NCBI GenBank assembly: GCA_024280995.1 | Contig: JAMXLM010000007.1 | Coordinates: 1 to 64,000, forward strand | Reading direction: 5' to 3' | Length of the DNA: 64,000 nt | Origin: Candidatus Dormiibacterota bacterium | Lineage (GTDB): Bacteria; Chloroflexota; Dormibacteria; Dormibacterales; Dormibacteraceae | Program-made: the position numbers and the translations under genes | Shown: positions 20,321-25,953 of the stretch, piece after piece | Layout: every line of letters begins with the position of its first letter | Position numbering within the stretch: the first letter of the stretch is position 1 | The notes under the pieces: generated by a model | The model's input: the letters and a program-made list of their open reading frames with translations, nothing else | Told to the model about the DNA's origin: nothing | The model's database searches: none

Positions 20321-21517
20321 TTAGGCGGCAAAAACTTGCTTGCCGCGGAGCCACACGATGCGGGGCTTCAGCCCGTAAGCCCACGCGAACGCCCCTTCGT
20401 GCTCAGCCTCCCAGAGGACGAGGTCGGCGAGCTTGTGCGGCGCCACCACGCCCCGATCTGAACGGGAGATCGAGAAGGCGCCCCCCAGGGTCGCGGCCAG
20501 CAGCGCGCGCTCGACCGACATCTTGAACACCGCGACTGCAAGCGCGATGACCGCGCTCATGCTCGTAAGCCCGCTCGTGCCGGGGTTGTGGTCGGTGCCC
20601 AGCGCGATCACGGCGCCTTCGTCGAGAAGCTCTTTGACCGGGGGCAGCTTTCCTATCGACAGGGCGGTGCCCGGCGCGAGCGTCGCGACAACGCCGGCGC
20701 GCGCGAGCGCGACCGCATCGCCGCGGTTCGCCCGCAGGATGTGGTCGGCGGAGACGGCGTGCAGCTCCGCCGCAAGGCGCGAGCCGCCGGTGTGCGCAAG
20801 CTCGTCGGCGTGGATGCGCGGGATGAGCTTCGCCTCGACCGCCGCCTTCAGGATCGACCGCGACTGCGGGACGGTGAAGTAGCCGCGATCGCAGAACACG
20901 TCGCAGAATCTCGCTCCCGCCTGGTGCGCGTCGTCGCACCATTCCGCGACCTGCCCCGCGTACGCGCTCATGCGCGCCCATCTATCGGGAGGCAGCGCGT
21001 GCGCGGCGAGAAATGTGACCTCGATTCGCGGCAGGTCTTCACGCGTGCCGAGTCGCGCGAGCAGACGTGTGGCTTCGATCTCGCCGTCGTGGTTGAGGAG
21101 ATATCCGGTTTTCGCCTCGACGGTCGTGGCGCCGCCCGCGAGCCACGACCACAGCCTGTGGGCGGTCGCATTCTCGAGCGCGCGAACGTCTTCCGCGCGC
21201 GTCGCTTTCACCGTGGCGCGGATTCCTCCGCCTGCCTTCGCCACCGCCTCGTACGTCGCGCCCGCCGTGCGCATCGCCACCTCGGCCATGCGGTCACCCG
21301 CGTACACGGGGTGCGTATGCGCGTCGATCAATCCGGCGGTGACCAGGCCGCCCGCGCAGTCGTGCTCGTCGGTGACGGACTCCATCAGCGCGCTCGGCTC
21401 GTCGCCGTGCTTGCCGCACCATGCGATCTCGCCGCCGTCGTAGATGACTGCCGCATCCTCGATCACTCCCGCCGGAGTGCCCGTGAAAAGGCGTCCGATG
21501 TTGCGAAGACGCCTCAC
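20321..21517 (-). CDS. hutI: Imidazolonepropionase
   Basis: 398 residues, the usual size. GLIDAHTHPVYAGDRMAEVA holds the metal-binding His pair. AGGGIRATVKATRAE, RIHADELAHTGGSRLAAELH and ALGTDHNPGTS are further amidohydrolase and HutI signatures. It opens the imidazolone ring to N-formimidoyl-glutamate, the third step of histidine breakdown. It starts at GTG 21517 inside GTGA with the hutF stop. It is last in hutH-hutU-hutF-hutI, and the -35 of the next promoter begins shortly after its stop. Confidence 0.95.
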   Translation of the reverse strand: MRRLRNIGRLFTGTPAGVIEDAAVIYDGGEIAWCGKHGDEPSALMESVTDEHDCAGGLVTAGLIDAHTHPVYAGDRMAEVAMRTAGATYEAVAKAGGGIRATVKATRAEDVRALENATAHRLWSWLAGGATTVEAKTGYLLNHDGEIEATRLLARLGTREDLPRIEVTFLAAHALPPDRWARMSAYAGQVAEWCDDAHQAGARFCDVFCDRGYFTVPQSRSILKAAVEAKLIPRIHADELAHTGGSRLAAELHAVSADHILRANRGDAVALARAGVVATLAPGTALSIGKLPPVKELLDEGAVIALGTDHNPGTSGLTSMSAVIALAVAVFKMSVERALLAATLGGAFSISRSDRGVVAPHKLADLVLWEAEHEGAFAWAYGLKPRIVWLRGKQVFAA

Positions 21518-22743
21518 TTCGACACCGCGGTGTTCCCGCCGACCACTACGTTGATGACATCACGCTTCGACAGGCCGTACACGACGTAAGCAGGCGTGAT
21601 CTCGCGCCACAGCCCGCTCGGCGGGTCGAGGGTTACGAAGTCGGCGAGCGCGCCGACGCGCAGCTCGCCGGCGTCCCAGCCGAGCGCCCGTGCGCCGTTG
21701 ATCGTCGCCGCCTCGAGCAGCTCGGCCGGTTGATGGAGCACGCGGCGGCCGGATGCACGCCGCTGGTCGAGCTCGAGCCCGCGCGCGTCTTCGAGCATGT
21801 CGATCACGGCGTTGGAGTCGCTGCCGACCGTCATCCTGCAGCCCGCCTGACTCAAGGCCTGGAGTGGCCCGACTTCGTCGCCGAGGTCGCGCTCGGTCGA
21901 CGCGCACGCGCAGATCGCGACCTGGTTCTGGCCGAGCAGGGCGACGTCGTGCTCGCTGAGGTTGATCGCATGAACGGCGGTGAGGTCGGCGCCGAGGATG
22001 CCCTCGCGGTCCAGAAGCTCGGTCGGTGTGCAGCCCTCGATCTGCATGCACTCGTCGACCTCGGCCTGCTGCTCGGCGAGGTGGATGTGGAGCGGGATCC
22101 CGCGGTCGCGCGCGTAGGTCGCGACAATGCGCATCGACTCGGGGTCGACCGCGCGCACGCTGTGGATGGCCGCGGCGATGCGCGCGCCGTCGCCTTCGGA
22201 GAGGTCCTCGACGCGACGCGCCCACGCGTCGGCGTCGCCATCGCTGAAGGACATCTGGTCCACATCGAGCGGCCTGCCGTCCAGGCCGCCGCGCAGGTAA
22301 CAGGCGTCGATCAGAGTGATCCGGATGCCCTCCTCGGATGCGGCGTCGATGAGCGCTTCGCCGAGCTCGTTGCCGTGCGAATGCAGGTAATGGAACTCAC
22401 CGACGGTGGTGATCCCGGCCTCGAGCATCTCGCGAAAGACGAGGCGCGCGTGATTGAAGTAGTCGGCCGGCTCCCACTGAGTGAAGCGGTACATGCGCTC
22501 GCGCCACTCCCAGAAATCGCCGCCGCCCGACTCGATCTCGCCACGCAGGAGCCGCTGGAAGGCGTGGCTGTGCACGTTGACGAGCCCGGGGATCGTCCAG
22601 CCTTTCAGGACCGTTGCGTCATGCGGCGCGAACGTGTCCTCCTCGATCGCGCTGATCCGCCCATCCTGGACCTCGATCAGGACGTTCTCAGCGCGGTGGC
22701 CGAGCCACGCCTGCTCGGCATGCCACTTGCCCGAGCCGTTCAG
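21514..22743 (-). CDS. hutF: Formimidoylglutamate deiminase (start codon uncertain)
   Basis: About 409 residues counted from CTG 22743. The visible protein begins LNGSGKWHAEQAWLGHRAEN. It continues with GWTIPGLVNVHSHAFQRLLR, SGGGDFWEWRERMYRF and PLHIHLAEQQAEVDECM, and ends with the GSDSNAVIDMLEDARGLELD metal-binding loop. HutF removes ammonia from N-formimidoyl-glutamate to give N-formyl-glutamate, which needs HutG (not in the window). Between the upstream in-frame TGA and the conserved start there is no ATG, GTG or TTG. An ATG that overlaps the hutU stop is out of frame and meets TGA after 12 codons; that TGA overlaps the CTG as CTGA. So hutF either starts at CTG or has a small frame break. 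Confidence 0.88.
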   Translation of the reverse strand: MNGSGKWHAEQAWLGHRAENVLIEVQDGRISAIEEDTFAPHDATVLKGWTIPGLVNVHSHAFQRLLRGEIESGGGDFWEWRERMYRFTQWEPADYFNHARLVFREMLEAGITTVGEFHYLHSHGNELGEALIDAASEEGIRITLIDACYLRGGLDGRPLDVDQMSFSDGDADAWARRVEDLSEGDGARIAAAIHSVRAVDPESMRIVATYARDRGIPLHIHLAEQQAEVDECMQIEGCTPTELLDREGILGADLTAVHAINLSEHDVALLGQNQVAICACASTERDLGDEVGPLQALSQAGCRMTVGSDSNAVIDMLEDARGLELDQRRASGRRVLHQPAELLEAATINGARALGWDAGELRVGALADFVTLDPPSGLWREITPAYVVYGLSKRDVINVVVGGNTAVSK

Positions 22744-22778
22744 CGCGCCACCACCGGAGGGTCGGGACGATCCGGCAT
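22740..22778 (-). other. 12-codon mini-frame between hutU and hutF
   Basis: ATG 22778 shares one base with the hutU TGA (TGATG). It reads [12 protein letters not shown] and stops at TGA 22742-22740, which overlaps the putative CTG start of hutF. It could be a coupling leader, or the true hutF N-terminus if one base was lost. Confidence 0.4.
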
Positions 22779-24424
22779 CAGCCGTTCATCGGAATGTGGA
22801 CGCCACGCTCGCGCGCGACCTCCTTCGCACGCTCGTAGCCGGCGTCGGCGTGGCGCATGACGCCGGTGCCTGGATCGTTCGTCAACACGCGCTCGAGCTT
22901 GCGCGCCGCGTCATCGGTGCCGTCGGCGACCACGACCATCCCTGCGTGGATCGACCTGCCGATGCCCACCCCGCCGCCGTGGTGAACGCTCACCCACGAC
23001 GCGCCGCTGGAAGTGTTCAGCAGCGCGTTGAGGATCGGCCAGTCGGCGACCGCGTCCGAGCCGTCCGCCATCGCCTCCGTCTCGCGATACGGGGACGCGA
23101 CCGAGCCTGAGTCGAGGTGGTCGCGGCCGATGACGATCGGCGCCTTCACCTCACCTTTCTTCACGAGCTCGTTGAACAACCGGCCCGCGCGGGCGCGCTC
23201 GCCGTAGCCGAGCCAGCAGATGCGCGCGGGCAGTCCCTGGAAATGCACGCGCTCGCCGGCGGCCTTTATCCAGCGCACGAGCGCCGGGTCGTCACCGAAC
23301 TCCTGGACCATCGCGCGGTCGGTGGCGGCGATGTCAGCGGGGTCGCCGGACAGCGCGACCCACCGGAACGGACCCTTGCCTTCGCAGAACAGCGGCCGGA
23401 TGTACGCGGGCACGAACCCGGGGTAGTCGAATGCGCGCGCGCTGCCGCCCAGCCGCGCCTCGGCGCGCAGGCTGTTGCCATAGTCGAACACCTCGGCGCC
23501 GCGGTCGAGAAACGCAACCATCGCGTCCACGTGCCGCGCCATGCTCGCGCGCGCGCGTCTTATGTATTCGTCCGGATCGTCGAGCCGCAGCTCGGCGGCG
23601 TCCTCCGGCGAAAGCCCCGTCGGGATGTAGCTCAGCGGGTCGTGCGCCGACGTCTGGTCGGTGACCACGTCGATGTGCGCGTCGCGCGCGACCAGGTCCG
23701 CGAAGACGTCGGCGGCGTTGCCGAGGACGCCGATCGACACGGCCTGCTTGTCACGACGCGCCTTCTCGGCGATGCGCATCGCGTCGTCGAGGTCGTCCGC
23801 GCGGACGTCGAGATAGCGATGCTCCAGCCGGCGCGCGATACGGTCGGGGTCGACCTCGACGCAGATCGCCACGCCGCCGTTCAACGTCACCGCGAGCGGC
23901 TGCGCGCCGCCCATGCCTCCGAGCCCGGCGGTCAGCGTGACCGTGCCCGCGAGCGAGCCACCGAACCGCTTGCGCGCGATGGCTGCGAAGGTCTCGTACG
24001 TCCCCTGGAGGATGCCCTGCGTGCCGATGTAGATCCACGACCCCGCCGTCATCTGGCCGTACATGGTCAGGCCCATCGCCTCGAGGCGGCGGAACTCGTC
24101 CCACGTCGCCCACTCGGGCACGAGCATCGAGTTGGAGATCAGCACGCGCGGCGCCCACTCGTGGGTGTCGAAGATGCCGACGGGCTTGCCGGACTGGACG
24201 AGCAGCGTCTGGTCGCCCTCCAATCCCTGAAGCTCGCGGACGATCGCATCGAACGCTTCCCACGACCGTGCGGCCTTCCCGGTGCCACCGTAGACGACGA
24301 GATCTTCGGGCCGCTCCGCGACCTCCGGGTCGAGGTTGTTCATCAGCATTCGCATCGCGGCTTCCTGCGGCCAGGCCTTGCAGGTGATGTCGGAGCCGCG
24401 CGGGGCGCGGACGGCGCGCGCTAT
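22778..24424 (-). CDS. hutU: Urocanate hydratase (probable ATA start)
   Basis: 548 residues from ATA 24424. The N-terminus reads [20 protein letters not shown], the conserved urocanase opening. [58 protein letters not shown] and [20 protein letters not shown] follow. The enzyme uses NAD+ to hydrate urocanate. No ATG/GTG/TTG precedes the conserved start. ATG 24355 would delete 23 conserved residues. The ATA overlaps the hutH TAG (ATAG) and has GGGGAGG 5 bases upstream, so it is the best start. Confidence 0.93.
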
Positions 24425-25953
24425 CTCAGCCTCCCCGCGACCGCTTCGGCGGCTTCGATGACGGCGCCGCTGCGGACGAGCTCCTCGGCGGCGGCGAGCT
24501 CGGGTGCCACCACGCGGTCAGGCCCCACGCCCTTCACGTGCTTGCGCAGCGCGATCCTCACGGCGTCCGTCGCCGGCGCCGCCTCGAGCGGCTGCCGCAT
24601 CTCCTGCGCCCGCGCCGCGGCGCAAAGCTCCACGGCCAGGATGCTCGTCAGGTTGTCGAGCACGGTGCGCAGCTTCAACGCCGCGCCCCATCCCATCGAG
24701 ACGTGGTCCTCCTGCATACCGGACGTCGGCACCGAGTCGACGCTCGCCGGCGCCGCCAGGCGGCGGTTCTCCGCGACCAGCGCTGCCGCCGTGTACTGCG
24801 CGACCATCAGGCCCGAGTTCACGCCGGGCTCCTCGGCAAGGAATGGCGGCAGGCCTTGGGAGCGGTGAGGGTCGAGCATGCGGTCGACGCGGCGCTCGGC
24901 GATCGAACCGACCTCGGCCGCGGCGATGGCCAGGAAGTCGGCCGCGAAAGCAAGCGGCTCGCCGTGAAAGTTTCCGTTCGACTCGACCTCGCCGCTCTCG
25001 AGGACGATCGGGTTGTCGATCGTCGAGGAAAGCTCGACTTCCGCGGTGCGGCGCGCGAAGTCCAGCGTGTCTCGCGCGGCGCCCGCGACCTGCGGGCTGC
25101 AGCGCACCGAATAGGAATCCTGGACCGCGTGCTGCGAGTGGCGGTGCGAGGAGACGATGTGCGAGCCGTGCATCAGCTTCGCGAGGTTGGCCGCGCTCGC
25201 GGCCTGGCCTGCATGCGGGCGCACCTCCTGCATCCGCGGCTGGAAGGCGCGGTCGGTTCCGAGCAGCGCCTCCGCGGACATCGCGGCTGTGACGTCTGCG
25301 GTGCGGAACAGCCGCTCGGCGTCGACGCACGCGAGCACGAGCATGCCCAGCATGCCGTCGGTGCCGTTTATCAGCGAGAGGCCTTCCTTGGTCTCGAGCT
25401 TGACCGGCTTCAGCTTGGCCGCCTTCATGGCCTGCGCCGCGTTCCTGCGAGCTCCGCCGGTCTCGAAGACCTCTCCCTCGCCGACCAGCGCGAGCCCGAT
25501 GTGCGCCAGAGGGGCGAGGTCGCCGCTGCAGCCCACCGATCCGTAGCGCGGCACCACCGGGGTGATGCCCGCGTTGAGCATGCCGAGCAGCGTCTCGGCG
25601 ATCAGCGGCCGCACGCCGGACATTCCCATCGCGAGCGTGCGCGCCCGCAGGAGCATCGTGGCGCGCACGACCTCGCGGTCGACCGGAGGTCCAACGCCGG
25701 CGGCATGCGAGCGGATGAGCGCCAGCTGCAGCTCGGGCTGGCGGAGAGGCGCAACCCGCGTGCCGGCAAGGGCGCCGAACCCGGTCGAGACGCCGTACAC
25801 CGGCTCGCGCGAGCTCGCGGCCCGCTCGACCCTGGCCCGGCTGCGCTCCATTCGGGTTCGCGCGGCGGGCGAAAGCGCGACCTTCTCGTCGTTGCGGGCG
25901 ACGGCGACTACCTGGTCCTCCGTCAGGCCAGGACCTCGCAGCGTCACCGTCAC
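24421..25953 (-). CDS. hutH: Histidine ammonia-lyase
   Basis: 510 residues. [20 protein letters not shown], then [20 protein letters not shown] and [20 protein letters not shown] are diagnostic. The self-forming MIO cofactor would arise from C142-S143-G144 rather than the common Ala-Ser-Gly; Cys at this place is, to my memory, also seen in actinobacterial HutH. It turns histidine into urocanate and ammonia. It is first in the hut operon. The start is GTG 25953, with TACCTT 9 bases upstream and no SD. Confidence 0.95.

Follow-up and report, generated by a model that had tools for sequence, protein, structure and literature searches.

The classical weak start is that of infC, an AUU in E. coli. 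In Staphylococcus aureus, AUA starts have been mapped by ribosome profiling at infC, ccpN and citZ; the infC and ccpN sites carry extended Shine-Dalgarno (SD) sequences, and AUA reporters of ccpN and citZ gave about 10% of the AUG level in poor medium, according to the accessible part of that report (PMC13009471). AUA starts are already known, and what is new in the locus described here is the fusion of such a start with a stop codon, as AUAG. Searches of an open-access library turned up no account of such an AUAG fusion, and nothing relevant on the start codon of hutU or on the start codons of Dormibacterota.

The hutU gene studied here resembles the three S. aureus genes in its apparently natural AUA start, and infC and ccpN in its strong extended SD; a reduced output is reported there (PMC13009471, accessible part). 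The S. aureus starts were established by profiling and reporters, whereas the AUA of hutU is proposed from sequence; it also overlaps an upstream stop, an arrangement that the accessible text does not describe for the S. aureus starts. The weak AUN start of infC (AUA in S. aureus, PMC13009471), with its self-control by IF3, offers a further likeness, as proofreading by IF3 would be expected to act on the AUA of hutU too, but hutU, unlike infC, is a metabolic gene with no feedback on IF3. Coupling at ATGA and TGATG overlaps, as far as the accessible text describes it (PMC6728339), involves a 4-nt start/stop overlap in an operon, as at hutH-hutU; the present overlap differs in being ATAG, with a TAG stop and a non-NTG start. 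From the comparison of related genomes, we consider it highly probable that the ordinary initiator tRNA begins translation of hutU at AUA 24424, aided by a strong SD and by coupling to hutH.

The hutH-hutU junction in the window, the genus and the class

The stretch of DNA analysed here (64,000 nucleotides, hereafter the window) belongs to a 46-contig draft genome of 3.02 Mb, apparently that of an uncultured member of the Dormibacterota. On its minus strand the list of open reading frames, together with matches to domain and family models, gives the gene order hutH, hutU, hutF, hutI. The hutH gene (histidine ammonia-lyase; 24421..25953) has a GTG start and a TAG stop at 24423-24421; hutU (urocanate hydratase, or urocanase) would occupy 22778..24424, that is, 548 codons counted from ATA plus the TGA; hutI (20321..21517) begins with a GTG that overlaps the stop of hutF (21514..22743). 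The frame of hutU extends from just past an in-frame TGA (24520-24518) to the TGA at 22780-22778, 579 codons in all, and holds no ATG, GTG or TTG before 24355. Its first NTG is codon 55, the ATG at 24353..24355, which would be the expected choice of a standard gene caller and is residue 24 of the protein counted from the ATA. Eighteen codons of the conserved motif stand 5' of this ATG. No standard start for hutU was found within 35 codons before RAPRG, and between the upstream TGA and RAPRG the sole codon of NTG or ATN type, read by eye, is ATA 24424 (24422..24424, minus strand; residue 32 of the frame). The urocanase models TIGR01228 and PF17391 have their first positions at residues 34 and 36 of the 579-residue frame, just after the ATA and well ahead of ATG 24355.

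The ATA has two bases in common with the hutH TAG, the whole forming ATAG (24421..24424), and lies 5 nt beyond an SD-like GGGGAGG (24430..24436) within the 3' end of hutH, the spacer being CTGAG (24429-24425, all on the minus strand). The sequence-only reading had described this overlap with its GGGGAGG, and also a conserved urocanase N-terminus in frame ahead of the first ATG with no ATG, GTG or TTG before it; direct reading of the bases and of the frame agrees on both points.

Sixteen of the 17 genomes of the genus have hutU, starting with GTG in 10, ATG in 4 and ATA in 2, the window genome and G016. The ATA of G016 falls in the same alignment column as that of the window, the column where the AUG or GUG of most relatives in the genus overlaps the hutH stop. 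Thus the ATA, whose conservation in relatives had been proposed as a check, recurs in one genome, and the 14 others have ATG or GTG, either in the ATA column or, in loci L013, L014 and L016, further upstream. A wider reading ruled out L013, L014, L016/L017 and L020 as start-less loci: in each, an ATG or GTG lies farther 5', beyond some additional sequence. Palindromic GC-rich inserts of the CCCTCCCC...GGGGAGGG type lie within the coding region of hutU, between start and conserved motif, in L013 (G005), L016 (G012) and L020 (G028). The HutU matches of G012 (contig C231) and G013 (contig C196) are split in two, with about 22 query residues absent between the parts and no internal stop, and may reflect in-frame deletions.

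Across the class, HutU was matched in 99 of 110 genomes; a search at the level of the order had given the same 42 genomes as one at the level of the family. The 103 loci holding the N-terminus, minus three duplicates (L017, L018, L124), give 100 distinct junctions, to which some genomes contribute two HutU copies; genomes whose match is without the N-terminus (e.g. G060, G105) were left out, and 80 contig loci, among them L041, L050, L104 and L105, which have no anchor, were inspected and kept out of the tally. The start was assigned as the overlapping NTG closest to the motif, else as another NTG, else as CTG or ATA. By this rule the starts are ATG in 53 junctions, GTG in 38, TTG in 6, ATA in 2 and CTG in 1, with a TGA overlapped by ATG, GTG or TTG in 86 of the 100. 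Only three junctions have no ATG, GTG or TTG within 35 codons: those of the window, G016 and G041. The last (L222) has an apparent CTG start in a CTGA overlap behind GGGGAGG. Locus L155 (G092) is ambiguous, with a CTGA at -7 or a GTG at -2, and was tallied as GTG; six candidate CTG starts were rejected, the sequence being CTGATG and the ATG being used. Distant second copies of HutU, sharing 49-53% identity with that of the window, occur at G036:C10:19615-21135, G037:C49:40332-41954 and G088:C73:23475-25082.

The HutU N-terminus and the competing explanations

The junctions of the window and G016 read GGGGAGGCTGAGATAG and GGGGAGGTTGAGATAG, with the same GGGGAGG...ATAG. The HutU proteins are 91% identical, and the genes show a dS of 0.74 and a dN of 0.059, with third positions 62% identical; the low dN/dS speaks against a dead gene. 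The two group together in three HutU trees. Of the two protein trees, a quick one supports the pair at SH-aLRT 86 and a careful one at 72/84; a careful DNA tree gives 50/38. None of these values reaches the starred level, so that the sister relation, favoured and weakly supported, is not established. At synonymous sites the hutU of the window is nearer to those of the GTG species G015 (0.53) and G002 (0.58) than to that of G016. Taken together, the trees and these distances make one origin of the ATA likely without securing it. Two separate origins, if true, would be more striking still.

Several lines of evidence suggest that the residues ahead of ATG 24355 are part of the protein. Over codons 2-23, the window and G016 differ at 11 of 66 bases, third positions accounting for 7 (of 22) and the other positions for 4 (of 44; Fisher test, p = 0.026), and the differences in all are fewer than drift at the third-position rate would give (p = 1.5e-4, sites treated as independent), a comparison that presumes the ATA to be as old as the split between the two genomes. 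As these codons lie past the end of hutH, hutH does not explain the constraint. Residues G10, W18, E21 and A22 are invariant across 32 HutU sequences, and the alignment with solved urocanase sequences starts at query residue 2, 3 or 5 in 10 of the 11 matched. An AlphaFold2 model of HutU (mean pLDDT 86.2) has block means of 95 and 91 over residues 11-30, and predicts a helix at 18-29 that would be cut if HutU began at residue 24. Within the open frame, base composition at the three codon positions has a coding character in the block of codons 31-60, which includes the ATA (codon 32), and lacks it in codons 1-30. From sequence and model alike, the N-terminus before ATG 24355 looks translated.

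These observations bear directly on a first alternative, that in the window species and G016 hutU starts at ATG 24355 and yields a protein 23 residues shorter. No standard start codon comes before this ATG in the frame, but such a protein would lose the four invariant residues and part of the predicted helix, the 22 preceding codons differ between the two genomes in a protein-like way, and the other 98 of the 100 junctions start before the conserved motif; we regard this start as improbable. The frame of hutU is open 5' of the ATA, for 31 codons in the window genome and over a much longer stretch in G016, which might point to a frameshift at the end of hutH producing a HutH-HutU fusion. By eye, no slippery site of the form X XXY YYZ is found near the end of hutH in either genome, and almost all relatives have a plain start/stop overlap, so that a fusion of this kind seems very improbable.

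Equally slight is the probability that another nearby non-canonical codon is used, or that tRNA-Ile initiates at the AUA. ATC 24388 (24388-24386) is an in-frame near-cognate, but it falls within the conserved motif, and G016 has GTC in its place; against tRNA-Ile, an initiator tRNA with a CAT anticodon and a GGG/CCC stem is present in both genomes. An error of sequencing, assembly or binning hiding a true ATG or GTG would be slightly less probable again. Both genomes are draft assemblies, but the same ATAG and GGGGAGG are found in two genomes whose hutU third positions differ by 38%, which makes sequencing error very unlikely, and a G at the third base, the single-error case, would also abolish the hutH stop. 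Initiation at ATA 24424, as originally proposed, is thus supported by there being no other NTG before the conserved N-terminus and by an N-terminus that appears to be translated.

Proposed AUA initiation: infC, Shine-Dalgarno strength and probable mechanism

The earlier description of AUA as an extremely rare initiation codon holds for bacteria in general, but in the present genus infC also appears to start with ATA. We found infC in 15 of the 17 genomes (loci L193-L207), and in all 15 there is no ATG, GTG or TTG from the upstream in-frame stop to the IF3 N-terminus; the codon in that place is ATA in 14, including the window genome and G016, and ATT in G013, in keeping with the classical weak start of infC. 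AUA initiation is thus very likely at another gene of the genus, as judged from sequence. IF3 sequences are alike across the genus (by eye), and the initiator-tRNA pattern, with CAT anticodon and GGG/CCC stem, was found in 14 of the 17 genomes, again including the window genome and G016. A change in trans was sought; with IF3 alike and the initiator tRNA normal, the ATA-start feature is placed in cis.

We computed how strongly the 22 bases upstream pair with a standard anti-SD: a 16S gene was found neither in the window's own genome by pattern nor in the 17 genus genomes with the Rfam model. On this standard anti-SD, G016 (-11.9 kcal/mol) and the window (-11.3 kcal/mol) rank first and second among the 16 junctions of the genus. 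Among the 100 junctions of the class, a pairing of -9.5 kcal/mol or stronger is found for all 9 TTG, CTG and ATA starts and for 15 of the 91 ATG and GTG starts, 4 of which match the window in strength. Weaker starts have stronger pairing (Mann-Whitney test, p = 1.3e-5, standard anti-SD), a p-value that overstates independence since the species are related to each other. In E. coli, mutating an SD-less AUGA junction to AUAA left no downstream product, in the accessible part of that report (PMC9955659); by analogy, the SD may be essential at an AUA junction. Re-initiation is reported to be more than threefold higher with a 4-base SD (PMC2268962), and IF3 to exclude weak third-base pairs in vitro (PMC10158994). 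The AUAA result and the IF3 result weigh against the proposed start at AUA 24424, as do the 4 ATG and GTG junctions whose pairing equals that of the window.

We infer that the initiator tRNA, through its CAU anticodon, reads AUA 24424 and places fMet at residue 1 of HutU. The ancestral overlap would have been AUGA or GUGA, the simplest path to AUAG being ATGA, then ATAA, then ATAG. The weak codon would be tolerated because of the strong GGGGAGG 5 nt upstream and because ribosomes ending hutH at the UAG are delivered to the site. Compared with an AUG start, hutU would probably give a reduced output, a fraction of the AUG level, and this should drop as IF3 rises. A direct change of ATA to ATG turns the hutH stop TAG into TGG and, by frame reading, adds 26 residues to HutH; this loss of the stop may help to retain the AUA. 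The AUAG is a latch at most, as a two-step return through ATAA would be possible.

hutF and the meaning of the junction

A second gene of the window operon has an apparently unusual start. In the window, hutF has a CTG at its apparent start (22743-22741), and the first ATG, GTG or TTG is codon 71 of its frame. The comparison covers 32 loci listed of 40; five of the 32 come from genomes that other loci already represent, and L016/L017 belong to a single genome. Leaving out the window and the five repeats, 24 of the 26 listed loci have ATG, GTG or TTG in the column of the proposed CTG, and L011 and L030 have theirs one and four codons earlier. In G016 the start is TTG. Between 9 and 36 kb there are 18 open reading frames with coding-like composition (one of them is antisense to hut), and by eye hutU and hutF are the only two with no ATG, GTG or TTG at the onset of the coding signal. 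The hutU-hutF gap contains a mini-ORF beginning ATGCCGGAT (22740..22778, minus strand), with 12 codons in the window and 26 in G016 (L002); in the window it forms a TGATG overlap with the hutU stop, and in both genomes the TGA that ends it overlaps the start of hutF. This mini-ORF may serve as a mini-gene for coupling, or may be what is left of a palindromic insert. Palindromic inserts between hutU and hutF were seen in several relatives (L002, L005, L028).

Gene finders limited to ATG, GTG and TTG would trim 23 residues from HutU and probably shorten further genes in the same way. The hutH-hutU junctions form a natural series of AUG, GUG, UUG, CUG and AUA near one column, with a stronger SD for the weaker starts, so that compensation between start and SD is directly testable. 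In the AUAG junction, start and stop each constrain the other. Regulation of hutU through IF3 is possible. One might speculate further, as an unlikely extension, that infC, hutU and, in the window species, hutF make up a small set of AUA- or CUG-started genes in this clade whose translation tracks the level of IF3, so that the initiation machinery throttles histidine breakdown, and that the AUAG acts as an evolutionary latch, since the hutH stop would be lost if the ATA reverted directly to ATG.
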